Below, in pieces: positions 1-17,702 of a stretch of 64,000 bases of DNA. The position numbers and the translations under genes were made by a program. The stretch's first letter is position 1; every line of letters starts with the position of its first letter. Below the pieces are notes generated by a model, which was given only the letters and a program-made list of their open reading frames with translations, searched no databases and was not told the origin of the DNA. The stretch is taken from the NCBI RefSeq assembly GCF_900129505.1, contig NZ_LT670818.1, forward strand, positions 3,877,001 through 3,941,000. The letters are read 5' to 3'. The DNA comes from Bradyrhizobium erythrophlei. Lineage in GTDB: Bacteria > Pseudomonadota > Alphaproteobacteria > Rhizobiales > Xanthobacteraceae.

Positions 1-228
1 GCTCGTTGATGCGAAACACGATCAGGATGAATTCCGCGGCGATGCGCGAAAACACCACGCTGACGACCACGCTGGCGATCGATGACAGCAGCAGGATGAA
101 CCCGCCGAACGGGCTGATGGCCATCTCTGCCAGGCCGACAAAGATGCCGCGGAGGCCGAACAACACGATCAACGCGATCACCAGCCAGTAGAAGGTCTTG
201 ATAATGGTGGGCGTAATGAAGCGGTCCC
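1..228 (-). pseudogene. DUF4282 membrane protein gene, 3' portion cut off by element integration
   Basis: This is the downstream part of a small DUF4282 membrane-protein gene; it runs off the left edge of the window. It encodes two hydrophobic helices closely matching the intact copy at 16611-16904. Its first 15 or so codons are missing here and are found instead at 17001-17028. Joining 1-228 to 17001-17028 restores an uninterrupted reading frame beginning MFEFRDLFQWDRFITP, so this is the original host gene split by the mobile element. On its own it has no start codon in its own frame; the recombinase gene reads through the same DNA in a different frame to a stop at 178. Confidence 0.85.
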
Positions 229-1884: not shown

Positions 1885-1889
1885 CGGTC

Positions 1890-2108: not shown

Positions 2109-2123
2109 TTCCCCGTCCCCATA

Positions 2124-2270: not shown

Positions 2271-2304
2271 GAAAAAACCGCCCGTGCTAAATCGCACGAG
2301 CGGC
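2271..2304 (-). terminator. Rho-independent terminator after the 102-residue gene
   Basis: A 10-bp stem with one G-U type mismatch (2278-2287 with 2294-2303) followed on the minus strand by six U. It lies about 20 bases beyond the stop of the gene at 2324-2632. Confidence 0.75.
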
Positions 2305-2323
2305 CTGGTTGTCTTTAGTCTCG

Positions 2324-2632
2324 TTAGTTGTGGCAATAAGGCTCAAGACTGGCGTTGGCCCAAGTCTGAGGGTCGATAAATCCATCCCACTTCACAAGCG
2401 AAGCACATCCGCTGGCACTCACAATATCTCCCGCTATGCCACCTTCGGTATCGGCTTCAATAACTCGGTCACCGGGTGAGGGTGACCACCGTGTCATTTC
2501 ACCGGCCGGGTAATCGCGTTCTTCGTCTCGTTCCATTGAGACGACCTGAAATTTGTCACCGTCCTTGCGGAAAATGTAGCCGATACCTTCCGGTGTGCGA
2601 ACGTATGCGCCAGTCTGAATAGCCCCGCTCAT
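2324..2632 (-). CDS. Hypothetical protein, 102 residues
   Basis: An acidic, beta-rich protein with short segments such as GAYVRTPEGIGYIFRK and PSPGDRVIEAD, reminiscent of small SH3/KOW-like folds found in phage-derived islands; this resemblance is by eye only. It has its own terminator downstream and lies between the integrase unit and the divergent nuclease-protease module. No function can be assigned. Confidence 0.6.
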   Translation of the reverse strand: MSGAIQTGAYVRTPEGIGYIFRKDGDKFQVVSMERDEERDYPAGEMTRWSPSPGDRVIEADTEGGIAGDIVSASGCASLVKWDGFIDPQTWANASLEPYCHN

Positions 2633-2723
2633 ATGCAGTCCCTTTCATGGAACGAGTCGGGTGACCCGCCCCGCGAACATCACCGCACGTCTTGCATGTA
2701 GCCGTCAACACCTAAGGTGTAGC

Positions 2724-2753
2724 CAAAATCACTACACAACCTGTGAGATTTTG
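2724..2753. promoter_or_regulatory. Inverted repeat upstream of the 2842 operon, possible operator
   Basis: Arms caaaatc (2724-2730) and gattttg (2747-2753) are separated by 16 bases, and partial symmetry continues inward. The repeat lies in the divergent intergenic region (2633-2841) between the 102-residue gene and the nuclease-protease operon, about 90 bases before the first start. A repressor site or overlapping promoter is plausible but unproven. Nothing else is evident in this intergenic region. Confidence 0.35.
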
Positions 2754-2841
2754 TAGCTGAGATCGACACACACAACCTGCGCGACAGGCGTCGGAGAAAA
2801 GTGGTAGAAGCAACAACAAGGGACTAGCGCAAGTTGAGCGG

Positions 2842-4350: not shown

Positions 4351-5343
4351 TTGGCCATTGAACGTCTTGGAGTTAAGTCACCATCGCTTGGGATGACGGC
4401 GAGGTTGAAACGGGGTGCGGAAGAAATAGTTGCGCTTCCGGAGTCGGGGGATGGTATGTCGACAGTTCATAACTTGCCTGCAACACCAGCTTTTCGTGAC
4501 GAGCGCCCTGACTCGCCTATTTCAGAAATTGCTCTGCGGGTGATCGTTGAGCGCAACGATTGGCAGTTTGAAGTCGTAGGGACGGCGACTCTGATTTCAG
4601 GCCACCTTGCAATAACCGCAAATCACGTTTTGGAACATGCCTTGCGAAAGTACGGTGCTTTGCAAAAGGATGACAAACTAATCGAAATCGATTCGTTCGA
4701 ATTGAAACTTTGGCAAGTGTTGCCCGGACCCATCTATCGCACTTGGAAAGTTTTTGCAGCGTGGCCTTGCGCCACCGACGTTGTCATACTTCATCTAGGT
4801 CTTGATCGAACTAGTTTACCCGATCAGAAAATCGAATGGAAGCAACCGCGCCTACGTGTTCTACCGCCCCCGATAGGGGAAACAGTGGTTGCTTTCGGCT
4901 ATCGCGAATCCCATGTCAGGGTGACGGAAGGCGACGGACAGCACCACATCGAGCTAAACGACCGCCCCACGACTTCGATAGGCAAGATTAGAGAGGTTTA
5001 TTCGTCCGGGCGAGACTCTGTCATGCTTCCATTCCCCTGTTTTGAAATTGAAGCGCGTTTTGATCCCGGTATGAGTGGAGGCTTGGTTATCGACGAGGCA
5101 GGTGCAGTCTGTGGCTTAATTTGCGCGAGCTTGCAGCAGAGCGACGTGAACGCATCCCCAATTAGCTACGTGGCTTCGCTTTGGCCGATGTTAAAGACGT
5201 TGATATCGGCTAATCGAGGCGACGGATATCCGAAGGATGGTTCCTATCCCGTAATTGACCTAGCGATTGACGGTCTGATCTGTGTTACCGATCTTCACAA
5301 TCTCGATCCCGCTTTGTTCCCAGACAAGCAACTTTCAAAATGA
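4351..5343 (+). CDS. Trypsin-like serine protease (module A, gene 2)
   Basis: A 330-residue protein with a chymotrypsin-fold catalytic triad: His92 in ITANHVLEH, Asp143 in CATDVVILHL and Ser242 in DPGMSGGLV. There is no signal peptide, so it probably acts in the cytoplasm, unlike HtrA/DegP; no PDZ domain is visible. The TTG start at 4351 follows the previous stop with no gap; an ATG at 4456 behind a G-rich stretch is an alternative and keeps the whole protease domain. Pairing a cytosolic trypsin-like protease with a putative nuclease in a mobile element recalls protease-activated effector systems in phage defence. The domain call is firm; the defence role is inference. Confidence 0.82.
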   Translation: MAIERLGVKSPSLGMTARLKRGAEEIVALPESGDGMSTVHNLPATPAFRDERPDSPISEIALRVIVERNDWQFEVVGTATLISGHLAITANHVLEHALRKYGALQKDDKLIEIDSFELKLWQVLPGPIYRTWKVFAAWPCATDVVILHLGLDRTSLPDQKIEWKQPRLRVLPPPIGETVVAFGYRESHVRVTEGDGQHHIELNDRPTTSIGKIREVYSSGRDSVMLPFPCFEIEARFDPGMSGGLVIDEAGAVCGLICASLQQSDVNASPISYVASLWPMLKTLISANRGDGYPKDGSYPVIDLAIDGLICVTDLHNLDPALFPDKQLSK

Positions 5344-5349
5344 GATCAA

Positions 5350-5640
5350 TCACCGATCCCGCGCCAACTTCCGCCGTCCCCAATGCTTCTCTTTCCGAGC
5401 CGGATCAAACACGCGCTCCACCTGCCGGTTCAACGCTCGCATGACGCCGATCCGCGCAAACATTGTCGGCCCGTCGTGCTCCGCAACAAGAAGCAACGCC
5501 TCCATCGCGGCTTGCCATTCAGCGGCGTTGTGCTCTGCCTTGGGCAGCTTGGTGATGTAGAGCGCGGCGTCGCGGAGGGTGAGCAGTGGCTTGCCCTTGG
5601 GCAGTGGGATTGGTTCGTCGAATTTTTTATCCCATGACAT
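5350..5640 (-). CDS. Conserved small hypothetical protein (MSWDKKFDEP family)
   Basis: A 96-residue protein beginning MSWDKKFDEPIPLPKG, of a type I recall as common in Bradyrhizobium genomes, including near prophage-like regions. The segment LRDAALYITKLPKAEHNAAE followed by a helix resembles a small all-helical fold. The start at 5640 is preferred because the conserved N-terminus begins there; upstream in-frame codons look non-coding. It sits between the two convergent protease modules. Function unknown. Confidence 0.7.
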   Translation of the reverse strand: MSWDKKFDEPIPLPKGKPLLTLRDAALYITKLPKAEHNAAEWQAAMEALLLVAEHDGPTMFARIGVMRALNRQVERVFDPARKEKHWGRRKLARDR

Positions 5641-5665
5641 AAATTGTCCACCCGACCGCTCTGCC

Positions 5666-6532
5666 TCAGGCGACCGGCTCCGTCTGCCATTTGCCTCCAA
5701 CTAATTCCATTCCGAACTTGTCGCGTCCCTCCGCTATGAAAGCATCCAAATCACCGGCGCGGCTCGGAATACATGGGACTTCGCTACAAACTGGCATTAT
5801 GAAGCCACGGCGACCCGACCTAAAATAGATGCCAACGCCGCGTGTTTCGGTGTTGGAGGCAAGCAAAGTAAAGCCGCCTTCTGGCTCCCACGGAAAATGG
5901 GACGCTTCAACTGCCTGCATATATTCCAGTTGCTTCGAAATCCGCGCATCGACAACGCGAATTACGCATCCACTGATCGCTCCTACCGTAACAGCCTTCT
6001 TACCGACCGTATCTCGCGACAGAGCCTCCATAGCGTTCGACACGATATCGAATTCCTTTTCGCTCTCAGTCACAGCTATTTCGACGCCGGCATCAAGGCG
6101 AACTGGCGGCCCTGCGTAGGGCTGTCTCAGTTCAGTGTATCTCTGATAATCTGATTGCAAGCCAATATAGGCTCGACGGCATTCTAAAACCTTGCCATCG
6201 GTGATGCGGAAAAGTTGTTTCGTCTGCCCATTGAGCAAGGCGAGAAATTCACACCCGTCTAGACCCTCCCGATTTGCAATCCACTCGACAGGATCGATGT
6301 CCCGATTTTCCGATAAGGCAGCTTTCATTTCGCAAATTGCCCCATACGCCTCTTGGAATTTACCGGCGTAGGCCACCGCGACCGTCCCGCTGAGTACCTG
6401 GACCTTTAAGCTGTGGAACTCACCGTTCACGGGTCCCACATCATCGGGCAACTGGAAATGTTCATGGCTTAATAGCGTATCGCCCACCATAAAGCCGATA
6501 TCGCCATCGGCGTAACCAACGACTAACGTCAT
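5666..6532 (-). CDS. Proteasome/HslV-like N-terminal-threonine hydrolase (module B, gene 2)
   Basis: A 288-residue protein whose start is fixed by GGAGG nine bases before ATG ACG. Removal of Met exposes Thr1 of TLVVGYADGDIGFMVGDTLL, as in HslV and proteasome beta subunits. Asp17 falls at the canonical position, Lys42 in HSLKVQVL fits the catalytic lysine after a longer loop, and VAVAYAGKFQEAY matches the HslV GFAGG-TADAF region. FLALLNGQTKQLFRITDGKV fits the following beta-hairpin. The length exceeds HslV (about 175), leaving a C-terminal part of roughly 100 residues that I cannot assign. No HslU-like ATPase is nearby. It lies 79 bases downstream of the nuclease-like gene on the same strand. 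Homology is inferred by motif; the substrate is unknown. Confidence 0.75.
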   Translation of the reverse strand: MTLVVGYADGDIGFMVGDTLLSHEHFQLPDDVGPVNGEFHSLKVQVLSGTVAVAYAGKFQEAYGAICEMKAALSENRDIDPVEWIANREGLDGCEFLALLNGQTKQLFRITDGKVLECRRAYIGLQSDYQRYTELRQPYAGPPVRLDAGVEIAVTESEKEFDIVSNAMEALSRDTVGKKAVTVGAISGCVIRVVDARISKQLEYMQAVEASHFPWEPEGGFTLLASNTETRGVGIYFRSGRRGFIMPVCSEVPCIPSRAGDLDAFIAEGRDKFGMELVGGKWQTEPVA

Positions 6533-6611
6533 GGGATTGATCCTCCAACGCATCATCAGCAATTCGCGTTCAGCACCAGCGTTCCGTACGACCGGAGCCG
6601 GGTAGTCCACG

Positions 6612-7688
6612 TTACCTTGTCGCGCGCGATACCGGGGCAACCACAACTGAGGTTTCAGTATCTCCCTTAACGTCTTCGAGCCTAACATCCTCCACGTCGG
6701 TGGCCATTAATTCGGGTTGCCCAAAGACTTTCATTGCTTCAACTACTTCTACGACGGGGAATTCCCGACGCTCTTCTAGTATTCTGCAAATTTCGCGATC
6801 TACCGGGCGAGGTAGAATAGACTCTTTTGGAATCTTAGCATCCGCATTCATAAATGCCTGAACGACGCGCCACGCCTCATAAAAAATCTGCATGAAATCG
6901 GCATCATGATGAAGGGGACAAATCACCAAGCCGCGATGTTCGTCCAACCTCACTTTATCGCTAACTCCTTGGCGAGTGGGGACTATGCCAATTCGTAGTC
7001 CCGCCGCCCCTTCGAGTTGCGCCGGATTGATTTTTACACTTGTGCCTACCCATTGTTGACTATCTAACGATCCGACGAAAAGATCGGCTTTCCACAAGCC
7101 ACGAATTGACGACGGTAGAGCCAATCTCGTTGTTGGTCGTCTAAACGCTGCGGCAAGCATATTTAAACGTCTCAGAAGTTTCGGAGGTTGCCCGACTTTA
7201 CCGGCTAGGGTGCGAGATTCGTCCGTGAGGATATTTTTGGCGGTAGCGATCAATTGAACTGCACCTGATTTCTCGATTCCAAAGAGAATCGACTTAGTCT
7301 CGTTTGGCCTAATCCTACAGAATCTCATCGCGTCATGAATTCGCTCAGTTACCCGAGCATCACCATTGTTCATCGCTTCGTGGACAGCATACTCAAAGCA
7401 AATTCCCACGTCGCCATCGCCGGGTCTGTATAGACGTGGCAACATTTTTAACTTGACGTCTGAGGCACCTCCCGCTTCAGCAACAACGTCGGCTTTCAGT
7501 GCGTTAAGGACACCAGATAGAATAGGTCCAACCACCGCTGTGAGAGCCAGAACGTCATCGGCTACGGCATTAAGCTGCTTTTCCCTACGAACCTTCATTA
7601 TCGCCCCCAGCAGATTACTAGAGGGAAACATGCCATATTTTTGGACTGAAGGTGAACGTTTCTGTTCAGATTGCGAAATAACTTCCAT
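6612..7688 (-). CDS. Possible nuclease-fold protein (module B, gene 1)
   Basis: A 358-residue protein if started at ATG 7688 (alternatives: ATG 7598 behind a G-rich site, or TTG 7841 without a good ribosome site). The order FEYAVHEAM (Glu99, Glu104), KADLFVG (Asp202) and WVGTSVKIN (Lys219) followed by GLRIGIVP resembles the E...D...x-K layout of PD-(D/E)XK proteins, but the position usually Glu before the Lys is Ser217, so catalysis is doubtful. No membrane segment. The gene is the first of a two-gene unit with the threonine hydrolase and is divergent from the small gene at 7845. An inactive DNA-binding or target-recognition role is also possible. Confidence 0.6.
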   Translation of the reverse strand: MEVISQSEQKRSPSVQKYGMFPSSNLLGAIMKVRREKQLNAVADDVLALTAVVGPILSGVLNALKADVVAEAGGASDVKLKMLPRLYRPGDGDVGICFEYAVHEAMNNGDARVTERIHDAMRFCRIRPNETKSILFGIEKSGAVQLIATAKNILTDESRTLAGKVGQPPKLLRRLNMLAAAFRRPTTRLALPSSIRGLWKADLFVGSLDSQQWVGTSVKINPAQLEGAAGLRIGIVPTRQGVSDKVRLDEHRGLVICPLHHDADFMQIFYEAWRVVQAFMNADAKIPKESILPRPVDREICRILEERREFPVVEVVEAMKVFGQPELMATDVEDVRLEDVKGDTETSVVVAPVSRATR

Positions 7689-7844
7689 TATCTTCTTTCT
7701 ATTCCCCGGTGCAGCGGTCCCCGATTCGCCCGTTGACCTGTCCCCACCAGCCACCGCCAGCGGGGCGACGTTCGAGATTGTTTTTGAATTGCTAAATCGA
7801 TTTGCTGTGCTACACGCTCGACTCCAAAAAAAAGGAATCAAACG

Positions 7845-8021
7845 TTGGCCAAGAAGAAAAAAGTAGTTCGTCTCGCGTGGTCGAAGGATGACTTACGTAA
7901 TTTGAAGTCGATGGCCCGAGACAAACAAGGCGTTGCCAAAATCGCCAAGGCATTGAAGCGCACGCCCGGCGCAACGACCGTCCAAGCGGCCAAGCGTGGA
8001 ATATCGTTGAGTACAACGTAA
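7845..8021 (+). CDS. Small basic HTH-like protein, 58 residues, TTG start
   Basis: The TTG start lies eight bases after AAAGGA. The product begins MAKKKKVVRLAWSKDDLRN and contains KIAKALKRTPGATTVQAAKR. This matches a small protein type I recall from rhizobia (W-[ST]-K-x-D-x-x-x-L-K then K-R-T-x-G-A-T), which looks like a Myb/SANT-type helix-turn-helix. It is transcribed divergently from module B and its start lies just outside the longest possible start of that gene, so it may regulate the module. Confidence 0.7.
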   Translation: MAKKKKVVRLAWSKDDLRNLKSMARDKQGVAKIAKALKRTPGATTVQAAKRGISLSTT

Positions 8022-8134
8022 TCAAAGCCAGTCCCAACTTTTTGCGACCGCTTCCCGGAATTTGCCCGCCTACCTCGCCAGCCAGTAAGAAACCGTGCCT
8101 TGACAGATTGGGAAGCGCGACACACCTTGAATTC

Positions 8135-8156
8135 AGGCCAACAATTGCGTTGGCCT
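8135..8156. repeat. Perfect 8-bp hairpin before a tiny ORF
   Basis: aggccaac (8135-8142) and gttggcct (8149-8156) form a perfect stem with a 6-base loop, 18 bases before the ATG at 8174. There is no U-run, so it is not an obvious terminator; a leader structure is possible. Confidence 0.4.
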
Positions 8157-8173
8157 CTAGCAGAGGAGATACC

Positions 8174-8236
8174 ATGGCTCCACCTGCAAAGGCTCGCCGC
8201 AGTGACCGCTGCTGCAATGTTCGGGCACGAGCGTAG
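8174..8236 (+). CDS. Possible 20-residue ORF with strong ribosome site
   Basis: An ATG preceded by gaggagatacc opens a 20-codon frame encoding MAPPAKARRSDRCCNVRARA. The Shine-Dalgarno sequence is good and a hairpin lies just upstream, but the frame is too short to judge from composition. It could be a leader peptide or chance. Confidence 0.25.
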   Translation: MAPPAKARRSDRCCNVRARA

Positions 8237-8328
8237 CGGCTAACACACGAACGGCGTTCCGGGAGCGGCCTATGGGCCTCATCAGTTAGGCATGGACCAA
8301 CTTGGCCCCTCCCGGAGCGATTGCCGTC

Positions 8329-8601
8329 CTATAGAAAATCCCGGAGCCGGGCAATTTCAGGAATAAGTCTTGCGGTCAGGACGGCGCTGACCAGTTCTCC
8401 CTGTGGAGTCGTATGAATCTCGTAAAGGTGTTGCTGGGCTGTTGGCTTCGCCATGAATTGCCGGATGCAATAGTCCAAAGTGCCATCCACGATTAGATAA
8501 GGGCGGGCACCTTCGGCGGCACTAATGCGCTCGCCATTTCGTGACGGCCATTTTCGCAGAATTGCAGGGGCATCAAAATTGATTCGATTCGTATCGTCCA
8601 T
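8329..8601 (-). CDS. Hypothetical protein, 90 residues
   Basis: A soluble protein beginning MDDTNRINFDAPAILRKWPS with a mixed alpha/beta appearance and no membrane segment. It lies in the same orientation downstream of the terminase small subunit gene and probably belongs to that transcription unit. No domain recognised. Confidence 0.6.
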   Translation of the reverse strand: MDDTNRINFDAPAILRKWPSRNGERISAAEGARPYLIVDGTLDYCIRQFMAKPTAQQHLYEIHTTPQGELVSAVLTARLIPEIARLRDFL

Positions 8602-8656
8602 GACGAGGACCTAATACAGATTGCAAATGCATCGCAAGCTTTGCGAACCGGAACAA

Positions 8657-8851
8657 CTACCTCGGCTCCGGGTACTGCATCCCCGGCTCCCAGCGAAAGT
8701 TTTCACTATCGCCAGCGCGGTCCCATAATTCTTGCAGCACAAAGCCATGATTGAGGCTAACCAAGAAGCCGGCTTTGCGATCACCATCTAGCCACGCTGC
8801 ATGATGTTCGCTGATTGCGCCGCGATGTTTGTTCGTTCTACGTTTCGGCAT
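8657..8851 (-). CDS. Hypothetical protein, 64 residues
   Basis: Begins MPKRRTNKHRGAISEHHAAW at ATG 8851, chosen because AGAGGA lies eight bases upstream; earlier in-frame starts overlap the terminase gene. The basic N-terminus suggests nucleic-acid binding. It follows the terminase small subunit gene by a few bases. Function unknown. Confidence 0.55.
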   Translation of the reverse strand: MPKRRTNKHRGAISEHHAAWLDGDRKAGFLVSLNHGFVLQELWDRAGDSENFRWEPGMQYPEPR

Positions 8852-8856
8852 ATCTT

Positions 8857-9192
8857 TTATCCTCTGTTGCTGCGGAGAGAAGGCGGGCGATTGTCGGGAG
8901 CGGAGTCCTCGCTCAAATCGAGTTCGCGACACAGCCTTGCGAAGGCGATGGTGGCTGCTTCACCGACCGACACGGCAGGATGTTTTCTCGGCGCTCCGAA
9001 ACGATCGTTATAAAAGAGTCCGTGCTCTGCAATGGTCTCTCTTGCCGTTATAGCTCGGTCCCAGGAATCCGCCGCGAGCGTGAGTAACTTCACGTGGTGA
9101 GGTTCGAGTTCGTATTCGGCGTGGACGCTTTCCCACCAAACCTGCGTTGGCTTGCGAAGATGGGTTGGCGCTTTGGTTGTTGATTTCTTCAA
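8857..9192 (-). CDS. Phage terminase small subunit, P27 family
   Basis: A 111-residue protein with the P27 pattern: HLRKPTQVWWESVHAEYELE, then EPHHVKLLTLAADSWDRAI, an IAEHGLFYNDRFGAPRKHPAV turn, and a C-terminal helix ending CRELDLSEDSAP. Terminase small subunits recognise the packaging site and recruit the large subunit. No large terminase gene is found in the element. A small subunit alone is what packaging-redirecting satellites carry, suggesting dependence on a helper phage. The 156 bases upstream contain a GC-rich hairpin near 9296-9333 and probably the promoter. Confidence 0.8.
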   Translation of the reverse strand: MKKSTTKAPTHLRKPTQVWWESVHAEYELEPHHVKLLTLAADSWDRAITARETIAEHGLFYNDRFGAPRKHPAVSVGEAATIAFARLCRELDLSEDSAPDNRPPSLRSNRG

Positions 9193-9348
9193 TGTTAGTT
9201 TCCTTGTAGTACAAAAAGTGTTTTGAACGGGAGGGCCAGCCGTTCAACTTGGGCCTGTGGCCGGTGTCGGGTGCTCATGCTGTAGAGATGGGATGCCCCC
9301 ACCCGTCCCGCACTTCCAGTGGGGGATTGGTGTGATGCTGTGTCGCGA

Positions 9349-10090
9349 CTACACCTTCGTTCGGCTATGCCTTGGAAATCGAATGTATTCGGGATCGAGC
9401 AGAGCTAGCAAATCGATAAAAGCGTTCTGCAAATTCGTAAGCCGCTCTTTAGCTTGGTCGAGATTCTGATTGAGCGACGCGACATCACTCTCTAAATCGT
9501 CGATCAACGGATCGGTGCCCTTGGTGAATTTCGTAAGGAACGCGCCATATCCAACGCACTCAAGGCCTGTTGGGCTGGTCACGATAAACGCCTCGCCTAT
9601 CGCCCGTTGTTCACCTGCAAATATGCGAAGTGTCTTCGATTGCTGATCTGTGCGCCAGATGCTTTCGATCCTATCTTGAAGTTCTTGCAACTGCCGCGTC
9701 TTCTCGCTACCTCCCAAATCAATGAACTGAATCTGCCGGCGCACCATTTCAGTCCAACACAAGTATTGTCCCATTAAGAAGGCCGTATTGTTGATGACAT
9801 ATTTCTTTTCCCTTTCATCGCCACGGACGAGATAGGCGCCGGATAAGGTCTTGCTTTAGTATGTTGTAAATTCGGCTTTGTAGATCGAAGGCGGCCCGGG
9901 CGAGCGGCTCGCGTAGCTTCGACATCTCTTTTTCCCGTTGAGATGCGTCTTGAAGTTTTTGGTTATCTATTTGCAACACGGCAATAGCTCTCGCGTTATC
10001 ACTTGATTGACGCGAACCTATGTAAGTGCCTACGACAGCGGCGAGCGAGGCGGTCGCAGCAATAACCGCGACAATAATCTCAACTTTCAT
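9349..10090 (-). pseudogene. Membrane-anchored coiled-coil protein, split by a frameshift
   Basis: Two overlapping frames together make one protein of about 245 residues. The N-terminal part begins MKVEIIVAVIAATASLAAVV (one membrane helix) and runs through FDLQSRIYNILKQDLI. It then shifts and stops near 9815. The other frame continues GAYLVRGDEREKKYVINN into the 141-residue frame ending at 9349, with a coiled coil near the C-terminus. Removing one C/G from the run at 9839-9842 restores a single frame. I recall similar intact proteins (FDLQSRLYNI type), but could not compare them here. It may be a true mutation, a sequencing error, or a phase-variable site. Confidence 0.7.
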
Positions 10091-10162
10091 GACGCCCCCT
10101 TGAATGCGCTGACAGATTGAATTGTGAGATTAAACAACTTCACTCGTCAAGCAACGGCACCA

Positions 10163-10351
10163 CTAAGCCTTCGGCCAACCAAACGGTGAGCCGCCGGTTG
10201 AACGAACGCACAGGTGATGCAGCCAAGGCGCTGGCGTCGTGAAAAATAGGGTTTTGGGGTCATATTCTGAATTGGGAATTTGCGTGCCATGAGGCGGTTC
10301 GGTCGGCACCAAATCGCTTACGTGAAGATAGGTCGTCCCCCCTACGTACAA
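10163..10351 (-). CDS. Doubtful small ORF, 62 residues
   Basis: TTG-started frame encoding a proline- and threonine-rich peptide with segments such as SDLVPTEPPHGTQIP. The frame stays open upstream to about 10407 without a normal start. Composition is plausible for coding, so this may be the tail of a decayed gene. It lies in a gap between the frameshifted gene and the ATPase gene. Confidence 0.25.
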   Translation of the reverse strand: MYVGGTTYLHVSDLVPTEPPHGTQIPNSEYDPKTLFFTTPAPWLHHLCVRSTGGSPFGWPKA

Positions 10352-10496
10352 GCCACAGCGCGGCTCTGTGGGGGGCCATACGTATGCTGGCTACCCATGT
10401 GGCTGCCGTAGCAAACCAAGCCACAGGCTGGCCGTTGTGATGGTTGGCCAGCGCCCGGCTATTCGCCACCACCAGCCACGTCAAAAAACGAAGTAG

Positions 10497-10630
10497 CGGT
10501 GGCAGCGACGGCCCGGTTTCCACCGGGCGGCGGTGCTTCCACCGCCACGGGGGGTATGGGGGGTGGCAGCACACACGCGGTGGAAGGCGGTGGAAGCCGG
10601 TGGTAGGTGCGGTGGAGGGATCGGTGGAAC
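10497..10630. repeat. Cluster of CGGTGGA-type repeats beside the RepA-like gene
   Basis: About eight copies of cggtgga or its complement tccaccg occur in roughly 130 bases, in both orientations, immediately beyond the 3' end of the RepA-like ATPase gene. The surrounding gap (10352-10637) has no convincing gene. Clustered short repeats next to a replication ATPase suggest an origin, but the repeats are irregularly spaced and very GC-rich. Confidence 0.4.
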
Positions 10631-10637
10631 CCCCCGG

Positions 10638-11762
10638 CTAGTGAACGGTCGTGTGGCCAGTTTCCACTAACCGCGACCGTTGCCGGGATGGTGAGCCTTC
10701 CGTCACGACCTTAATGCAACCGGAATCCAACAGCCTCTGCATTGAGGCGGCAAGCTTGTCTTTGCTGTATCCTTTTGCCTTGGGGTGCTTGGCCATCTTC
10801 GCAGGCGCATACGAAGTGCCCGTAATAATTCCAACGTTCTGGCCTTGCGCCGTGAAGATGCCAAGCAACTCAAGAAACAGTTTATCGACCGTCGAATTGA
10901 ACAGCGACTCAACAACAGGATCGCCGCCATTGTCCAAGACATAAATGCCGTCCTGCCATCGCATTTCGATCTTTTCGCCTACCTTGCCGTGGTTTGCCTT
11001 AACGATTGTCAGGACTCTGGTTTCCGGTGAAGTTATTTCCAGATAGAGACGGCTCCGAACAGAGTTGTTCCAAGCGGTGCTGCCTGACGTACCGGTGCCG
11101 CTGTTCATGCCGGTGAGACTAGGATGGCTCAAAAGCAAAACGGCGCAATCGACATCCATCGCAAGTCCGCGAAGCATCGAAACGAACTTCCGCACTTGCG
11201 CCCGGTTTATCTCGTCACCACCGAAAACATCGGCACTCGGGTCGACCACGATTAGCTTTGGCCGCAAAACCATCGCTTGCGAAACAAGCTTCGGATAGAT
11301 CACGGTCGCAGCAAGGGTTCCTTTCCGGTCTGGCTCGGCCAGTACAGCGTCTAGACCGGCCATCGGAATAAGCCGTATCCCGTCTAGGTCCGACAACTGC
11401 TTTCCCGACTCCGATACAATCGTTTCTAAGCGTCTGTGAAGCTCGTCCGCTTCATCTTCCGCGCCGTAATAGAGACACGGACCGATAGCCACGTTCTTGC
11501 CGAACCATGACAGGCCAAGCGAAGACGCGGCGATCAGTTGCAGGACGATTTCCGTTTTGCCGGAACCACCATCGCCGCTTAGATTTGTCACCGTGCGATC
11601 TGGAATCCACCCTTCAACGAACCACTGCCGCTCCGGTACTGACTTGCCCTGCCAATCGCGGGGATCAATGACGGGGAGTGAACTAGCGTATCCGGCCTGC
11701 GCTTTGATGTTCTGGTTTGGCGAATAGGCTATAGCCTGTCTGAGTGTTCGCACGTTGCTCAT
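10638..11762 (-). CDS. RepA-like RecA-fold ATPase (AAA_25 type)
   Basis: A 374-residue ATPase with Walker A GDGGSGKTEI near residue 65 and Walker B LIVVDPSADVF near 175, followed by the LLLSHPSLTG region typical of RepA/DnaB-like RecA-fold helicases, and a C-terminal winged-helix-like part. Probably the replication helicase of the element or a phage-type replicative ATPase. Its start overlaps the upstream gene's stop by ATGA, showing translational coupling. The repeats at 10497-10630 lie just downstream. Confidence 0.82.
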   Translation of the reverse strand: MSNVRTLRQAIAYSPNQNIKAQAGYASSLPVIDPRDWQGKSVPERQWFVEGWIPDRTVTNLSGDGGSGKTEIVLQLIAASSLGLSWFGKNVAIGPCLYYGAEDEADELHRRLETIVSESGKQLSDLDGIRLIPMAGLDAVLAEPDRKGTLAATVIYPKLVSQAMVLRPKLIVVDPSADVFGGDEINRAQVRKFVSMLRGLAMDVDCAVLLLSHPSLTGMNSGTGTSGSTAWNNSVRSRLYLEITSPETRVLTIVKANHGKVGEKIEMRWQDGIYVLDNGGDPVVESLFNSTVDKLFLELLGIFTAQGQNVGIITGTSYAPAKMAKHPKAKGYSKDKLAASMQRLLDSGCIKVVTEGSPSRQRSRLVETGHTTVH

Positions 11763-12385
11763 GCCGCTACCTCAAATGCTATTCTGTCTAGTGCGGCTCG
11801 CTCTGCGGCATCGCAATCAAGGAAGAGCCGTTCGGCTGGACCCACGAAAGCAAGTTCCGAGATTTCGCAGGCGTGTTCGTATCCTTCAGCAATAATGCAC
11901 GGGGCATGTTGCAACAGCGGGAAGAACGATTTCGAAAGCGGCAAGATACCTTCGCAGTTGGCCAGCAGCCAATTGATTGGGTTCTTATAGACCCGCAGCG
12001 GGCTATCCAATTTCGTACGCCCTTGGGCAGTGCTACCGATGTACTGGCCGATCCCGGTGACACAGCCCCAAACAGAGTGGTCGTGGCGGGATATCGCCAG
12101 CAAATCGACCATACGGAAGTCTTCGTAGACCGGCAGGACGACGGCAAGCCCACCTGTATGTGTTGGTGTGAATGTCCAATGATACGTATGGAGCGCAAGC
12201 AAACCCAATTCGAAGCGCCCACGCATCATAGCGGCTTGTCCGACGATGGTGTCAGAAACGTAACGCCAATCTAACCAAGCCTGTGCGCGTTCAGGACGGT
12301 GTTTGTGCCCTTCGAAGAGTTGTTCAGCATCTATGTTCGAACGCCAATACGGTAGGGTCGTGTCGCGGTGGTAAAAAGAAGTCAT
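11759..12385 (-). CDS. Hypothetical protein coupled to the RepA-like ATPase
   Basis: A 208-residue protein from ATG 12385, chosen because it lies 12 bases after the upstream gene's stop; longer in-frame forms run into that gene. Contains VVLPVYEDFRMVDLLAISR and CIIAEGYEHACEISELAF, which suggest a compact alpha/beta domain. The position before a RepA-like ATPase would fit a primase or polymerase-associated protein, but no primase motif is certain. The stop overlaps the ATPase start (ATGA). Confidence 0.6.
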   Translation of the reverse strand: MTSFYHRDTTLPYWRSNIDAEQLFEGHKHRPERAQAWLDWRYVSDTIVGQAAMMRGRFELGLLALHTYHWTFTPTHTGGLAVVLPVYEDFRMVDLLAISRHDHSVWGCVTGIGQYIGSTAQGRTKLDSPLRVYKNPINWLLANCEGILPLSKSFFPLLQHAPCIIAEGYEHACEISELAFVGPAERLFLDCDAAERAALDRIAFEVAA

Positions 12386-12396
12386 TTCTAAAATAC

Positions 12397-12729
12397 TCAA
12401 CTCGCTGTCGCTGGTTCCGACAACACGTCGAGCAGATGATCCACGAACGAAGGGAAATCTTTGATCTTCCTCGTGAAGCCAACTTGCCTTGCAGCGATGC
12501 TTATCGATTCGCGCCAAGACTCGGACGCCCATCCCGCATAGGGCTGGAGTCGGAGCCAATCGGTGAGTTCAGCGGAATCAATGGCAAGTTTTGCGAGGCA
12601 TTGGCCAGCGCGAGCATTGCGAGGGTCCGAAGGAAACTTGATCGCGAGCTTTTTTCGCCATCCACCTGTGTGGTTGAGTCCAAAGATCAACGAGTCGATG
12701 CAATCAACTTTTTCTATTTCATTAGTCAT
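12397..12729 (-). CDS. Hypothetical protein, 110 residues, first gene of the replication operon
   Basis: A soluble, mostly helical protein beginning MTNEIEKVDCIDSLIFGLN. It is followed closely by the 208-residue gene and the RepA-like ATPase, making a three-gene unit. No domain recognised. Confidence 0.55.
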   Translation of the reverse strand: MTNEIEKVDCIDSLIFGLNHTGGWRKKLAIKFPSDPRNARAGQCLAKLAIDSAELTDWLRLQPYAGWASESWRESISIAARQVGFTRKIKDFPSFVDHLLDVLSEPATAS

Positions 12730-12748
12730 GTTAATATTTCAAAGATAT

Positions 12749-12766
12749 TGCCGCGAAATTGCGGCA
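12749..12766. promoter_or_regulatory. Inverted repeat upstream of the replication operon
   Basis: tgccgc (12749-12754) and gcggca (12761-12766) form a perfect 6-bp palindrome with a 6-base spacer, about 20 bases before the ATG of the 110-residue gene. It lies in an AT-rich stretch within a gene-free gap (12730-12940) and is a plausible operator. Confidence 0.4.
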
Positions 12767-12940
12767 GTCGTGCGCACGAAAATGCCAGCGGTGCGCTTGC
12801 TGGTCGTGTTAGAGCAATGCCGGTCACCGGCTCGTAGCTGCGGAGAAAAGCTACGGCCGGATTCCAAGCATCGTGCTGCCGTCATCCAATGCCGGGATGA
12901 AACATTGAGGGGCGCACAGATTCGAAACGTTTATGGCTGG

Positions 12941-13510
12941 TTACTGCAGCTTGCGAAGCTCGCGAAGGAAGCCACGGCTCGCGCCTTCGCTCGCAAAGGT
13001 CTTGGCGTCATCAGCGAGCGAACCTACGTCGTCCGCGTTACGAATCTCAGACCATACCTGCCGCACGGCACCAACGTAGCAGGCACTTATCTCTAGGAGC
13101 ACCGCAGATTTAATGAGCAGGACTCCATCGCTGCGAAGGGAGGCCTGCAGAAGATGGTAGCCCACGCTCAGTTGGTCGCGCCCCTCAAGCCTATCAAGCA
13201 CGCCGTCCTTGAGATGAACCCGCATCGCGAGTCCAGCTTCACAGTCGTGAACCTCTAGATCGCCGTCATCTTGATCTGCCATCGCCTTTTCTGAAAGCAA
13301 GTGATCTCTGAGAAAGAGCAATCCCGTCAAACTTCCGGCAAAGCATCCCGGAAGAAATATCTCTCGGACGTCGGTCTTGTAGTTGGTGTGCTCGACGTTG
13401 TAGTGACAAGCCCAACCCTGCAGAACCTGTTGCTTCTGAGGCAAGGCCTTGCGAGCCACGCCATCGTCTCCGACCAAATAGCGCCCGGGGGCAAGGTGGC
13501 CGTAGATCAC
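12941..13510 (-). CDS. HK97-family prohead protease-like protein
   Basis: A 189-residue protein with the prohead protease layout: LQGWACHYNVEH strand, DVREIFLPGCFAGSLT (the E-x-I-x-P-G-x-F motif), RDHLLSEKAMADQDDGDLEV in place of the usual L-x-x-H-D segment, then DQLSVGYHLLQA and VLLEISACYVGAVRQ. In HK97 phages it processes the scaffold region of the capsid protein. The GTG start at 13510 overlaps the previous stop. No portal or capsid gene accompanies it, so it may act on a helper phage's capsid or be a remnant. Confidence 0.75.
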   Translation of the reverse strand: MIYGHLAPGRYLVGDDGVARKALPQKQQVLQGWACHYNVEHTNYKTDVREIFLPGCFAGSLTGLLFLRDHLLSEKAMADQDDGDLEVHDCEAGLAMRVHLKDGVLDRLEGRDQLSVGYHLLQASLRSDGVLLIKSAVLLEISACYVGAVRQVWSEIRNADDVGSLADDAKTFASEGASRGFLRELRKLQ

Positions 13511-14214
13511 AGCCGCATCTCCTTCGGGACTGCCGAAATATGCCCGTCATTCTTCGCCGAGCGGAAAAAGTCCGCCATGTCGGAGTAAGGGTCGTTCGGT
13601 GCCCCTAGGAACGCGGCGGGAAGATTCAGGCACAGACCATGGAGACCACCATTATCGATCAGATGGCTCTTCAAATTGAAAAGCTCGCTCCAAACGGAAA
13701 GCGCCTCAAGCTGCTTCTGGCAGAAAGTTTTCATCAAAGCATCGTGCTTTGGACGCATCTTCTTAGAGTACTCTATTGCGAGCTTCATTTTCTCGCGCTG
13801 TATCTCTCCCGTTAGAAAATCTATGGCGTCCAAAGTAGCGGACAATTTGATTTGCTCGCTGTCAAGCTGCTGCTGGATGCTGCTAGGCGTAACAATCACC
13901 TCACCGGCTAGCGTTCGTTCAATCGCTTCTTTCTTTCGGGCAGCTTCGTCTCGGTTGTCGGCAGATACGACTTGCTTTTTCATCGTGGTCTTTAAAAGGC
14001 CGATGCGAGCCACCGTCGTGGTGTCTGCGTCCCAGGTTGTAGAGGACGTTTCGTCATAACAACTGGCCGGGGATAGCAGCTTGGTAAAATTCCAAATTTT
14101 GGCTCGTGATTGCGCACTACTGGCTAAAAGCCGGGCCTTGTTTTGGGTATCATCCGTAAGTTTATCGGACGTGAGGATTGGATCGGGATTAGGCTTAGTC
14201 ATATGATCTTTCAT
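13507..14214 (-). CDS. Hypothetical helical protein, 235 residues
   Basis: A hydrophilic, largely helical protein with a coiled-coil tendency between about residues 85 and 165 (EAARKKEAIERTL, QREKMKLAIEYSKKMRPKHD). It precedes the prohead protease gene with a GTGA-type overlap, so the products are probably made together. A scaffold-like or structural role would fit the context but is not shown. Confidence 0.6.
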   Translation of the reverse strand: MKDHMTKPNPDPILTSDKLTDDTQNKARLLASSAQSRAKIWNFTKLLSPASCYDETSSTTWDADTTTVARIGLLKTTMKKQVVSADNRDEAARKKEAIERTLAGEVIVTPSSIQQQLDSEQIKLSATLDAIDFLTGEIQREKMKLAIEYSKKMRPKHDALMKTFCQKQLEALSVWSELFNLKSHLIDNGGLHGLCLNLPAAFLGAPNDPYSDMADFFRSAKNDGHISAVPKEMRL

Positions 14215-14647
14215 TGTTGAGGACGGCGTCCACCTGTTGGACGATTTGATTGCAATTCACGATGATGACGCATGCCGAATTGCTGATCTCGGAAATCGAA
14301 GTATCGGCAAAGCAATTTTTCACGGTCGCACCATCTGGTGTCACCACCAGATGGGTGGTGCCATGGGCGAACAATTCTCCGGGCGCGCGGTTGATATTTC
14401 CGACGTCGGAGAATTCGAAGGCCACGCGCGCCGCGTGTGGGATGGACAACCCGTTACGGTGTAGCTGTTTCATGGCGGCGGCCTGATAGGCGCGTGGCCT
14501 TGACAGGCCAACACGGGAGCCGCTGCCGCTTGGTCTCTTGTCGGCTCCGCACAACTTGAGCGCTCCTAATGCAAAGCACTGGCTCAAAGCCCGTTGCTTC
14601 ATTCCGGCGGCACCTGCGACGATGCGCGTCGGCCACGTTTCGACCAT
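14195..14647 (-). CDS. Hypothetical protein, possible DNA-binding regulator, 150 residues
   Basis: Starts at ATG 14647 after AGGA with a 6-base spacer. Contains NGLSIPHAARVAFEFSDVG, which could be a helix-turn-helix, and LVVTPDGATVKN. It overlaps the start of the 235-residue gene by about 20 bases. Excisionase-like or regulatory function is only a guess. Confidence 0.55.
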   Translation of the reverse strand: MVETWPTRIVAGAAGMKQRALSQCFALGALKLCGADKRPSGSGSRVGLSRPRAYQAAAMKQLHRNGLSIPHAARVAFEFSDVGNINRAPGELFAHGTTHLVVTPDGATVKNCFADTSISEISNSACVIIVNCNQIVQQVDAVLNNERSYD

Positions 14648-14679
14648 TTGAAATCCTCGCTTTGTGTTTTGTTAGCTGC

Positions 14680-14717
14680 AAAAAGAAACACCCCCGGCGC
14701 GGTGACACCGGGGGTGT
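14680..14717 (-). terminator. Rho-independent terminator after the 383-residue gene
   Basis: A perfect 10-bp GC-rich stem (14688-14697 with 14708-14717) is followed on the minus strand by a U-rich stretch. It separates the 383-residue gene at 14804 from the downstream gene at 14195-14647. Confidence 0.8.
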
Positions 14718-14803
14718 GAAAGTCTGCTTTTGGAAAAGCCGGAAGAATCTAACTTCCATACTTAGACTATAACGGTTTTGCCACGACCCCCTCCCGGGCC
14801 CCC

Positions 14804-15955
14804 CTAAGCGGCTTTCGATGCAAAGGTGTCGAAGCGGTGATTGTCGTTTGCAGGCAATGGCTTATCGGCAAGCTTGATGACTAAACCGGCTGTCTGGTTC
14901 TGGTAGGCGTTCCCCGCCAAAACACCTAACGTGCCCTTTATGATGTCATCGACTGAGAATCCCGGCCGGTCGACTCGTATTTGTCTGGCGCGGATTTGAC
15001 TTTGCCACACCGAAAAGGCGCGGTCCTGTCGTCCGAGTCCCTTCCTGATCGACTCCGCGAGCCTCAATCCTTCAATGATGCGTTGACGGCCAACTGCTGC
15101 CGCAACGTCTTTGCCTTTGCCTTGCCCGAAGCTCTTCATATCCTCGTGGCTGGCAATGGCGCGAATGACGGGATGCCAGAGCGAGCGCATTCCAAACATC
15201 AACATACGAATGATCTTGCCGGATTCCGCCCGTTGATCGAGGTCGGGAAAATCGACCTGTGGCAGAAGAGGCGGACCCTCGCGCCGCAGATCGTTAACGT
15301 CGATTTTGGCTAGCTGATCGATTTCACGCAGATCATCTATAAGCCGACCGATTCTGTAGTTGTCTCCTTTGATCTCAAGACGGTGCGTTATTCCGTCCAC
15401 GTCAGTCACTGTAGCGTTTCCACTTTCGTCAGTCGCACAGATATTGAAATTCTTAAATCCGAATCCTTCGTTTCCTGCTTCATCGGGCGCTTCATCATCC
15501 GGCCCGGTAGGTGCGCCAGTTCCTTCCGTGCTTTGTGATTTTTTGTCGCCGACGTAAATGTTAAGTGGCGGAAGCGCTTCCGCTGGCGTCGTCGTGACTC
15601 GAAAGTGCTTGTCGATCCACAGCGCAGTATTCCAGAGCCTGCCGTTCTCTTCCTCGTTCTTGCCAAGACGGCCCGCAATATATTCTGCATACAAATGGTA
15701 AGCGCCGCGCTTCTCATCATCGGTACCGGCGCGGCCAGAGGGCGGGCCGAGATATTTTGGCGCGGGTTCGTTCTCGATTGGATATGGATGGTCGTCACCG
15801 TCCAGCAGGCATTTCTCGCGTTCTCCCGGTCGGAGAAAACCTACACGCGAACTTCCTGAACGTCTTATGGCGATTTTCGGCGGTACGTCGATATCGCCAG
15901 CATTGAATGAAGGGTCAGCGGTCTTGTCGATAGCATTGAGAAATTCGTCGTCCAT
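14804..15955 (-). CDS. Hypothetical protein, 383 residues
   Basis: A soluble protein with an acidic, low-complexity middle (about residues 140-165, including GPDDEAPDEAGNEG) and a C-terminal part with IRMLMFGMRSLWHPVIRAIA. It is transcribed alone and ended by the hairpin at 14680-14717. The start ATG 15955 follows a purine-rich site. Nothing in it matches a family I know; its place in the element suggests a phage-satellite-specific function. Confidence 0.6.
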   Translation of the reverse strand: MDDEFLNAIDKTADPSFNAGDIDVPPKIAIRRSGSSRVGFLRPGEREKCLLDGDDHPYPIENEPAPKYLGPPSGRAGTDDEKRGAYHLYAEYIAGRLGKNEEENGRLWNTALWIDKHFRVTTTPAEALPPLNIYVGDKKSQSTEGTGAPTGPDDEAPDEAGNEGFGFKNFNICATDESGNATVTDVDGITHRLEIKGDNYRIGRLIDDLREIDQLAKIDVNDLRREGPPLLPQVDFPDLDQRAESGKIIRMLMFGMRSLWHPVIRAIASHEDMKSFGQGKGKDVAAAVGRQRIIEGLRLAESIRKGLGRQDRAFSVWQSQIRARQIRVDRPGFSVDDIIKGTLGVLAGNAYQNQTAGLVIKLADKPLPANDNHRFDTFASKAA

Positions 15956-16570: not shown

Positions 16571-16610
16571 GTTTGGCCTGTACCGGCAGCTTTGCCGCCC
16601 GGCCAACAGG

Positions 16611-16904
16611 CTAGCGGCGTTCCCCTTGGTCGCGGATGGCGCCGAGGTGCTCGTTGATGCGGAACACGATCAGGATGAACTCGGCGGCGATACGCGAAAA
16701 CACCACGCCGACCACCACGCTGGCGATCGACGACAGCAGCAGGATGAACCCGCCGAACGGGCTGATGGCCATCGCCGCGAGGCCGGAAAAGATGCCGGAC
16801 AGGCCGAACAGGACAATCAACGCGATCACCAGCCAGTAGAAGGTCTTGATGATCGTCGGAGTTATGAATCTATCCCATTGAAAAAGGTCTCGAAATTCAA
16901 ACAT
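16611..16904 (-). CDS. DUF4282 membrane protein, element-borne complete copy
   Basis: A 97-residue protein: an amphipathic N-terminus (MFEFRDLFQWDRFITPTIIK), then two membrane helices (about residues 21-45 and 48-80) and a short basic tail. It duplicates the host gene cut at 1-228, with about 90 percent nucleotide identity after codon 18. In the first 18 codons I count 13 differences in 54 bases, all synonymous, including five within the 19-bp recombination core. The ATG overlaps the stop of the 43-codon fusion frame from the host promoter side, so it can be translated from the host mRNA. It therefore looks like a rescue copy resistant to the element's own recombinase. Confidence 0.85.
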   Translation of the reverse strand: MFEFRDLFQWDRFITPTIIKTFYWLVIALIVLFGLSGIFSGLAAMAISPFGGFILLLSSIASVVVGVVFSRIAAEFILIVFRINEHLGAIRDQGERR

Positions 16905-17028
16905 TTCGATTCCCCCCGAACATCAAGTAGCTCTCCAACGGCCCAATAAAATCAGGTCGTTTTGCTGTATCGGTACAGTCTGGCGTAATGAAGCGGTCCC
17001 ACTGAAACAAATCCCGAAATTCAAACAT
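16897..17028 (-). pseudogene. 5' fragment of the interrupted DUF4282 gene fused to element sequence
   Basis: Starts at ATG 17028 behind GGAGA and encodes the first 16 residues of the host DUF4282 protein. It then crosses attR into the element and stops after 43 codons at 16897, where its TGA overlaps the ATG of the intact copy (16904). It keeps the host translation start and leads ribosomes to the replacement gene. The host intergenic region 17029-17237 upstream presumably holds the native promoter. Confidence 0.8.
16967..17000. repeat. attR: right attP arm plus 19-bp core
   Basis: gtatcggtacag (16967-16978) is the perfect inverted partner of 231-242, followed by the 19-bp core at 16982-17000 identical to 210-228. 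Bases to the right are host DUF4282 5' coding sequence. Recircularisation would give an attP with the core flanked by 12-bp inverted arms, as expected for a large serine recombinase. Confidence 0.88.
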
Positions 17029-17237
17029 CGGTCGTTCTCCCCCAGCACGTCGAATATCAGCTTCGTTGCAACCCGGCCAGAGACGGCGCAGGGCCCAGCC
17101 CCGAATGTCGTCCCGGGCAAGGTCGGGGACACCGAAGAGCGGTACCCGCCCGCAGAGCACGAGCCATGCGGGCAGGCCGCTTGAGATTGCCGCAAAGTGC
17201 GGCCACAATCGGGCTTCCCTCGCCACAATCCCCCGCC

Positions 17238-17702
17238 ATGACCCTGACCTTCGAAGATTTCCCGCCCGGCCATTTCGGCACATTCGGTCCGCGCCGCGTC
17301 ACGCGCGAGGAGATCCTTGCCTTTGCCGCCGAGTTCGATCCGCAGCCAATGCATCTGGACGAAGCGGCGGCGGCGAAATCGATGCTCAAGGGCCTGTCGG
17401 CCTCGGGCTGGCATCTGTGCTCGATCACGATGCGGATGATGTTCGACGGATATATCGGTCGCACCGCGTCGCTGGGCTCGCCCGGCGTCAACGAATTGCG
17501 CTGGCTGGCGCCGCTTCGTCCCGGCGACGACCTCACGCTCGATATCGAGGTCATGGAGGCAAGGGTTTCGCGCAGCCGCCCCTCGACCGGCATCGTGACC
17601 TTCAAGGCGCTGGTCCGCAACGCGGCGGGGCAGCTGCTGTGCGAAATGGTGTCGCCGATCATCGTGGAGCGGCGCGCCGGCGCGGCAGAGCAGGCCGGCT
17701 AA
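17238..17702 (+). CDS. MaoC-family dehydratase
   Basis: A 154-residue hot-dog-fold protein with FAAEFDPQPMHLDEAAA, the MaoC/R-hydratase motif in which Asp and His are catalytic, then LSASGWHLCSI and the GVNELRWLAPLRPGDDL beta region. Probably hydrates an enoyl-CoA or a related thioester. The start at 17238 gives the typical N-terminus. Its TAA overlaps the ATG of a second MaoC gene (TAATG), so the two are translationally coupled and may form a heterodimer. Confidence 0.85.
   Translation: MTLTFEDFPPGHFGTFGPRRVTREEILAFAAEFDPQPMHLDEAAAAKSMLKGLSASGWHLCSITMRMMFDGYIGRTASLGSPGVNELRWLAPLRPGDDLTLDIEVMEARVSRSRPSTGIVTFKALVRNAAGQLLCEMVSPIIVERRAGAAEQAG

Follow-up and report, generated by a model that had tools for sequence, protein, structure and literature searches.

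A serine-integrase element of Bradyrhizobium erythrophlei lies within a conserved DUF4282 gene and carries a complete, partly recoded copy of it

Integrative elements are generally described as repairing their targets by restoring one end of the gene, or as switching the gene off. The locus analysed here raises the question of how an element can occupy the interior of a conserved gene in a genome that still holds a complete version of it. The window, i.e. the whole stretch of 64,000 nucleotides that was analysed (G000:C1:3877001-3941000), comes from a genome of Bradyrhizobium erythrophlei that consists of one contig of 9.18 Mb. It contains a serine-integrase element of ~16.75 kb (window positions about 229-16981) inside a conserved DUF4282 gene. 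A sequence-only reading of this DNA had claimed that the element interrupts the gene near its start and brings a full copy at its right edge, beside a large serine recombinase att site, and this is borne out: the native gene is split at codons 13-16 and a full DUF4282 copy sits just inside attR. The native gene is split, yet an intact full-length replacement is present, which bears on whether integration would abolish the function of the target and excision restore it, as in regulated gene integrity. We consider it probable that the element splits DUF4282, supplies an adjacent complete replacement with an altered core, and carries its attP inside the integrase gene. Within this reading, the existence of a replacement gene is well supported, while the shielding of the copy from the integrase is what we infer.

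The left boundary is formed by the start-less 3' portion of the native DUF4282 gene, which occupies positions 1..228 on the minus strand and continues to G000:C1:3876966, with ychF beyond. The attL core (210..228), which is common with attR and reads GGCGTAATGAAGCGGTCCC on the plus strand, is followed by the left attP arm CTGTACCGATAC (231..242, plus-strand sequence), an inverted repeat of the right arm. The large serine integrase of 568 amino acids (178..1884, minus strand) comprises the Pfam domains Resolvase, Recombinase and Zn_ribbon_recom and matches phrog_95; its last codons cross attL and read the DUF4282 3' part in another frame, and the protein ends in GTGGTASLRPPLSRPSTGW before the stop. 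At the right boundary, the complete replacement gene of 97 amino acids with its recoded 5' segment (16611..16904, minus strand, Pfam PF14110) is followed by a residual integrase 3' end at attR (16923..16981, minus strand), which in the circular form specifies the integrase tail VPIQQNDLILLGRWRAT, up to the stop. The right attP arm, GTATCGGTACAG on the plus strand, lies at 16967..16978 and the attR core at 16982..17000. The 5' piece of the native DUF4282 gene, which retains its own start codon, occupies 16982..17028 on the minus strand, its last bases being common with the element core, and a maoC-like gene (17166..17702, plus strand) marks, by synteny, the flank on the 5' side of the native locus. 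In host sense, the core common to attL and attR is GGGACCGCTTCATTACGCC, and in attP it is flanked by the inverted arms GTATCGGTACAG and CTGTACCGATAC. With the domain set of a large serine recombinase, boundaries formed by att sites and relatives in which the site is empty, the element can be assigned to the large serine recombinase integrative elements.

The cargo region (2324..15955) encodes a trypsin-like protease (4351-5343), a terminase-small-subunit-like protein (8857-9192) and a primase/helicase-like ATPase (10638-11762), and its other open reading frames matched no named family in the libraries searched. The terminase-small-subunit-like and primase/helicase-like genes would be compatible with a phage satellite. 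No endonuclease family was found in those cargo proteins that were scanned, the recombinase being the serine integrase, and a PADLOC search of nine proteins returned only a weak RT-protease match to the trypsin-like gene. This gene immediately follows a 502-codon open reading frame of no known family (2842-5343 for both), possibly as a cargo operon. Elsewhere in the window, a 57-base tandem repeat array (29992-30763) lies within a reading frame of 470 amino acids (29490-30902, plus strand).

The relation between the copy and the native gene is uneven along their length. In codons 1-18 the window copy is changed at 13 of 54 bases and at none of the 18 amino acids, the 19-base att core is changed at 5 of 19 positions, and codons 19-96 differ at 27 of 234 bases and 6 of 78 amino acids. 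The figures given from sequence alone (13 of 54 bases with an unchanged protein, 5 of 19 core bases, and about 10 percent downstream divergence with amino acid changes) were thereby recovered. The changed bases span nucleotides 15-54, around the crossover region at nucleotides 37-40. Of the degenerate codons with identical amino acids, 11 of 13 are changed in codons 5-18 versus 16 of 73 elsewhere, a local excess with a hypergeometric p of 2.7e-5 and a best-window permutation p of 0.004. An unrelated paralogue with equal divergence along its length, an outcome that had been named as speaking against the claim, is ruled out for the window copy by this concentration of changes at the 5' end.

For comparison, we used an ortholog set of 89 of the 142 single-match genomes, consisting of the 29 best-scoring (as loci) and 60 picked down the list. 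Together with two joined host genes, the 89 orthologs form 4095 pairs, which are not independent of each other. At least 13 synonymous differences at the 5' end, i.e. the level of the window, occurred in 0 of 2583 pairs with similar downstream synonymous divergence and in 1 of 4095 overall. At codons 12, 14, 15 and 16 the window copy uses AGA, ATA, ACT and CCG, which are found in 0, 3, 2 and 42 of the 89 orthologs, respectively. Within positions 1-95, the copy and the fragment differ at five amino acids, and at four of these the commonest ortholog residue is present in the copy and absent from the fragment. The motif TTCAT is still present in the copy core of the window and of a second occupied site (G240), which counts against core erasure.

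DUF4282 is conserved in the genus and nearly always single. A match was detected in 262 of 265 congeneric genomes (250 of the 251 of good quality), with exactly one match in 258, more than one in four and none in three. Tandem copies in genomes with an empty site, the other outcome named against the claim, were not found: exactly one match is present in 258/265, and more than one is found only in G000 (the window genome), G032, G218 and G240, all of which are occupied sites. In all four, a 5' piece, a full copy and a 3' piece are present, with maoC next to the 5' piece and ychF next to the 3' piece; at 29 empty loci maoC was found in 28, ychF in 27 and both in 26. A missing gene start was seen in 0 of 142 single-match genomes, and no occupied site lacking a copy was seen among these 142; since the four sites were found by copy number, such a site could be missed in the 119 further genomes, for which only some of the matches were listed. 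Two of the four assemblies are fragmented, G032 into about 1000 contigs and G218 into about 980, and no single contig of G032 carries both att ends. In G240, on a contig of 9,242,232 bases, the copy is 58 kb away from the 3' fragment. In G218, both pieces and the copy lie within about 1.6 kb, the distance from the copy to the 3' fragment is about 0.9 kb, no integrase-sized open reading frame is present between the copy and the 3' piece, and the 3' fragment is missing bases near its start. The copy is the only complete DUF4282 gene found in this fragmented assembly, and it looks as if it was retained while the element shrank to less than 1 kb, with misassembly possible at about 980 contigs.

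How far the synonymous recoding around the target extends differs between these sites: it is clear in the window and weak in G032, and the G218 and G240 copies change amino acids as well, so that the original claim of purely synonymous recoding applies to the first two only. The G032 copy differs from its host gene at 11 of 54 bases and no amino acid in codons 1-18, at 31 of 234 bases and three amino acids in codons 19-96, and at 6 of 19 core bases. Changed codons amount to 9 of 13 in codons 5-18 versus 26 of 75 elsewhere (p 0.02; scan p 0.25), and of 847 matched ortholog pairs, 16 reach the 5' count, each of them with at least one amino acid change. The scan value and the 16 of 847 pairs make G032 the weaker support. 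Its codons 12, 14, 15 and 16 (AGG, ATA, ACC and CCA) are used in 4, 3, 9 and 0 of the 89 orthologs, and at the three amino acids that differ it is the copy, not the fragment, that departs from the consensus. The G218 copy is 72% identical to the window copy and differs from its host at 2 of the first 16 amino acids; the G240 copy is 54% identical and differs at 6 of the first 16. The octamer CGCTTCAT, picked after the sequences were seen and, in the G218 host, read from joined halves, is present in 4/4 used host sites, 59/89 orthologs and 0/4 copies (chance of 0/4 about 0.013). The bases common to attL and attR range from 19 in the window down to 4 in G218, with TTCA in all four as judged by eye.

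Further occurrences were sought by pattern. An attR pattern matched twice among the 265 genomes of the genus, in G000 and G032, and missed G218 and G240; an attL pattern matched G000 only among 198 genomes of the family, a sample to which G032 does not belong. Integrase peptide patterns gave no match in the genome contig or viral contig collections. The right-arm pattern gave 0 stretches in viral contigs and 13 in genome contigs, one of which is the G032 contig CADEDX010000497.1; the remaining 12, none titled Bradyrhizobium, are probably chance matches. The genome G013 carries an integrase that is 53% identical and ends elsewhere, together with a single full DUF4282 gene. In the plasmid collection, 276 records matched the integrase, all below 60% identity. 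The integrase tails of P0004, P0039, P0063 and P0016 read GVMKRSH-like, which corresponds to the antisense of the DUF4282 5' end, and these elements seem to use the DUF4282 site in the opposite orientation; the P0016 tail runs on to an LGRW tail, as an attP would.

The position of the copy suggests how it could be expressed. The distance from the native start to the copy start is 124, 123, 137 and 191 bases in the four sites. In the window, G032 and G218, the frame that begins at the native start is open through attR and stops at the copy start: in the window, a frame of 43 amino acids (16897..17028, minus strand) ends with a stop that overlaps the start codon of the copy (ATGTTTGA), in G032 the stop lies directly before it, and in G218 the two share TGATG. 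In G240, the frame from the host start ends 71 bases ahead of the copy. The simplest reading of this arrangement is that the copy would be transcribed from the native promoter and that its translation would be coupled.

The second feature of the element is the location of its attP. When the att halves are joined, the integrase frame is open through attP in three elements (window, G032 and G240), and the integrases of the circular forms end in NDLILLGRWRAT, NDLILLGRWMAA and GDLVFLGRYKLAA, respectively, each followed by the stop; a G218 integrase remnant can be read by eye as DDLIFLGRAKAAA. Because the integrase frame continues through attP, the stretch from attR to the copy is a residual integrase 3' end, and the differences between the window and G032 in this stretch look, by eye, mostly silent in the integrase frame. 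In the circular form, the integrase gene is directly followed by the DUF4282 copy. Of 346 integrase relatives, the 120 that were listed comprise 20 with DUF4282-forward tails (the integrated state), three with DUF4282-reverse tails, 32 with LGRW tails and 65 with none of these; within the same 120, tails ending in AA are found in 30 of 32 LGRW relatives versus 4 of 88 others. The circular-form tail of the window element itself ends in RAT, not AA. The two host tmRNA tags end in QAA and RLAA; the tmRNA genes (G000:C1:95884-96239 and 2959470-2959830) are different from each other and encode different tag peptides in one genome. In G240 (L159), the residual integrase tail that separates attR from the copy contains a second att-like piece, GTATCGGTACAGGCGGG, which looks like the trace of a previous tandem insertion.

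Taken together, these features are consistent with the following mechanism. In the circle, attP lies within the integrase 3' end with the complete DUF4282 replacement next downstream, and the serine integrase inserts the element at DUF4282 codons 13-16, splitting the host gene. Integration cuts the integrase at attP, so that a conserved ssrA-like tail (..LGRW..AA) is lost and a short out-of-frame DUF4282 tail is gained. It also places the replacement some 75-150 bases past the junction, behind the start of the host gene, where transcription from the host promoter could keep the DUF4282 protein present through a replacement gene that is presumably functional. The altered core of the copy, produced by synonymous changes only in the window and G032, would most likely render it insensitive to the integrase, which would then neither insert a second element there nor use it in a faulty excision. 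Because the tail resembles the ssrA-like ends that are removed by integration in the mycobacteriophage-type system of BPs, its removal may change integrase stability, presumably through proteolysis.

Several other explanations account for parts of this picture. Ordinary integration that restores a gene end, as exemplified by SXT at prfC and by elements at icd and tRNA genes, would fuse the host remainder to a 5' or 3' end supplied by the element. Such integration is usually set in a protein gene, with an integrase and a common core (PMC10111431, available passages), but at attL the integrase end precedes the host 3' part in another frame and no fused DUF4282 frame with its own start exists; since the junctions yield no chimeric DUF4282 gene, integration of the icd or tRNA type is excluded by the junction frames, and this explanation is scarcely tenable. 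It is very improbable that the copy is captured cargo from an earlier host without any rescue role. The tree on codons 19-97 would allow capture per lineage, because the window copy and the gene of its host fall together (96/70) and the G032 copy lies inside its host clade (98/95; 18 rows); however, a full copy of exactly the broken gene is present in 4/4 DUF4282 sites and in 7/7 chosen genomes at the second target described below, and the G218 copy remains although the rest of the element is nearly gone. In the same tree the four copies do not form one clade, which contradicts a single common origin; the G218 and G240 copies form long, deep branches of uncertain position. Unusual codons stand at positions 7, 9, 12 and 14 of both the window and the G032 copy, namely CTT, CAA, AGR and ATA (CAA in 26 of 89 orthologs, the other three in 0-4), and each of these two copies keeps the amino acids of its own host at codons 2, 3 and 5. 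Both parallel recoding and a mosaic of an element-derived 5' segment with a host-derived 3' part fit these 5' codons.

Two further explanations accept the copy or its recoding as real and differ in what the recoding is for. That the 5' changes block homologous recombination with the host 5' piece, rather than the integrase, is unlikely, but it has the most in its favour among the alternatives: near-identical 5' ends only 124, 123, 137 and 191 bases apart from start to start would form close direct repeats, and the recoded nucleotides (15-54 in the window, 6-48 in G032) correspond to about the stretch that is common with the host 5' piece. Yet in the window the recoding reaches nucleotide 54, beyond the 47 bases of the 5' piece left in the host, and the copy is less changed in its 3' part, where its identity with the displaced fragment is about 88%, although recombination there would delete the element. 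Selection for an AT-rich translation start, with loss of the att core as a by-product, is distinctly less likely still. Third-position GC in codons 5-18 is 0.43 in the window copy and 0.50 in the G032 copy, below the lowest value of the 89 orthologs (0.64), and 0.92 and 0.77 in codons 19-95; but the window changes begin at codon 5, not directly after the start, and the G218 and G240 copies are not shifted (0.65 over codons 2-18, with an ortholog minimum of 0.59). A replacement gene with a core altered with respect to the integrase remains our preferred reading.

A second target gene extends the comparison. At 23 loci with integrases that are about 35-41% identical, 22 integrases end in KSVSS before the stop, and in the remaining one (G122) the integrase frame continues into a fragment of ybgC; the sequence after the KSVSS stop is the antisense of the ybgC 5' end in 4/4 flanks read. 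The identity of this gene was checked by profile. Seven complete genomes were chosen, six with the KSVSS tail plus G122, and the profile TIGR02799 detected at least one full-length divergent ybgC together with a broken ybgC in 7/7. In six genomes the cut falls at profile position 13-14 and leaves a 3' fragment; in G122 the broken gene is a fragment fused to the integrase. Weaker paralogous thioesterases, up to 66 bits, also matched TIGR02799, and the control G000 gave one full ybgC above the cut-off and two weak matches. Two full copies each were found in G104 and G075, one of each slightly below the curated cut-off; with one truncated gene besides (L169, L170 and L179 in G104; L163, L171 and L178 in G075), it looks as if two elements had used the site. 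Eight ybgC copies are 77-100% identical to each other and the ninth (G075 at 7594289) is 68-72% identical to them. Copies and fragments are 62-69% identical, whereas the fragments are 80-83% identical to the native YbgC of G000. The core reads GATTTTTCCGGC in G000, GAYTCCGGCCAR in 8/9 copies and GATTTCAGCCAG in the ninth, and here amino acids are altered as well. The stretch between the ybgC copy and the fragment in G005 contains, in antisense, an LGRW tail that ends in NALISLGRWSVKA before the stop.

The copy in G005, in which the order was read, is on the 3' side of the broken gene and not behind the host promoter. Because of this location, ybgC copies would need their own promoter, and promoter inheritance is not general: whole-gene replacement recurs at ybgC, and promoter inheritance does not. 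According to the available passages of PMC9239051 and PMC9174649, the B element of the bipartite tRNA-Val symbiosis ICEs of Bradyrhizobium is reported to integrate at ybgC, and its integration inverts the chromosome between the sites; such an inversion would explain why the integrase is far from ybgC in most of the chosen genomes. It is possible, if somewhat short of probable, that a family of Bradyrhizobium elements, including the symbiosis-ICE ybgC element, shares one compact switch that combines removal of the integrase tail with a core-erased replacement. If so, a conserved gene would become a safe and durable docking site and the arrangement a natural counterpart of recoded rescue. The integrase L029 (G032:C179:4413-6026) carries the KSVSS tail, and G032 may carry both DUF4282- and ybgC-type elements.

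The original reading had likened the locus to a cleave-and-rescue arrangement. Synthetic cleave-and-rescue drives combine an attack on a gene with a recoded, insensitive rescue copy. The window and G032 cores are changed at 5 and 6 of 19 positions, but amino acids change downstream, and here a recombinase stands in place of a killing nuclease; the term is an analogy only and as a label goes beyond the evidence. The reading had further named no known case of a complete recoded rescue gene beside a serine-recombinase site; a whole-gene homologue next to an integrase site does have some precedent. The helper-embedded PICI 11capE of E. coli NRG857c inserts into a gene of which it brings its own full homologue, and its authors state that sequence differences at the att region would likely prevent self-integration (PMC10111431, available passages). 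The likeness lies in integration into a gene, a full homologue of the target and differences in the att region; the serine-integrase case differs from 11capE, whose target is a phage capsid gene in the helper prophage, in that a conserved chromosomal gene is used, attP lies inside the integrase gene and the copy stands directly behind it. Other islands with target homologues are described in PMC7192596, as cited in PMC10111431. Outside bacteria, the WHO elements of Torulaspora and Lachancea follow a similar logic, because the conserved gene FBA1 is cut, a resistant part is supplied and the old fragment is displaced (PMC7282813, available passages); there, a homing endonuclease and break repair give a chimera with a replaced 3' end, in contrast to site-specific recombination and a whole separate gene here. 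On the available parts of these papers, 11capE is the nearest bacterial precedent and the WHO elements are the nearest logic elsewhere.

For the integrase tail, the comparison is with BPs, in which integration removes an ssrA-like tail from the repressor and the integrase carries a degradation signal too (PMC4557955, PMC9262239, available passages). An attP within a coding gene and the removal of an ssrA-like C-terminal tail are common to both, the tail being ssrA-like by likeness only in our case; the gene cut in BPs is the repressor and such phages use tyrosine integrases, whereas here the serine integrase itself is cut. The B element of the tRNA-Val symbiosis ICEs belongs to the same genus and uses the ybgC site of the related integrase clade, and it differs from the window element in its target and in the copy lying 3' of the broken gene; a full copy stands beside the broken ybgC in our data, and a replacement ybgC is absent from the available B-element descriptions (PMC9239051, PMC9174649). 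In the literature searched, no mention of DUF4282 was found, and a limited search found no earlier report of this DUF4282 replacement case. The case can be described as a target kept by whole-gene replacement with an altered att core, together with an att site inside the integrase gene.

Whole-gene replacement would let an element use the interior of a conserved gene and would make the host depend on the copy of the element. G218 looks like an end state of this process, in which little but the copy is left of the element, and where genome surveys turn up a divergent second copy of a core gene, the same process may be the reason. It would provide a natural model for recoded-rescue designs, suggests one way in which elements can avoid harming their hosts, and is relevant to the manner in which symbiosis ICEs occupy ybgC; the swap of the integrase tail opens a clear test of integration-dependent recombinase control. 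Other recurrent integrase tails, namely TSSTSSG..VAMQ, QVQRGNTWR, NAVTSD and EKSVSS, the last of which corresponds to ybgC, point to additional targets of this integrase family.
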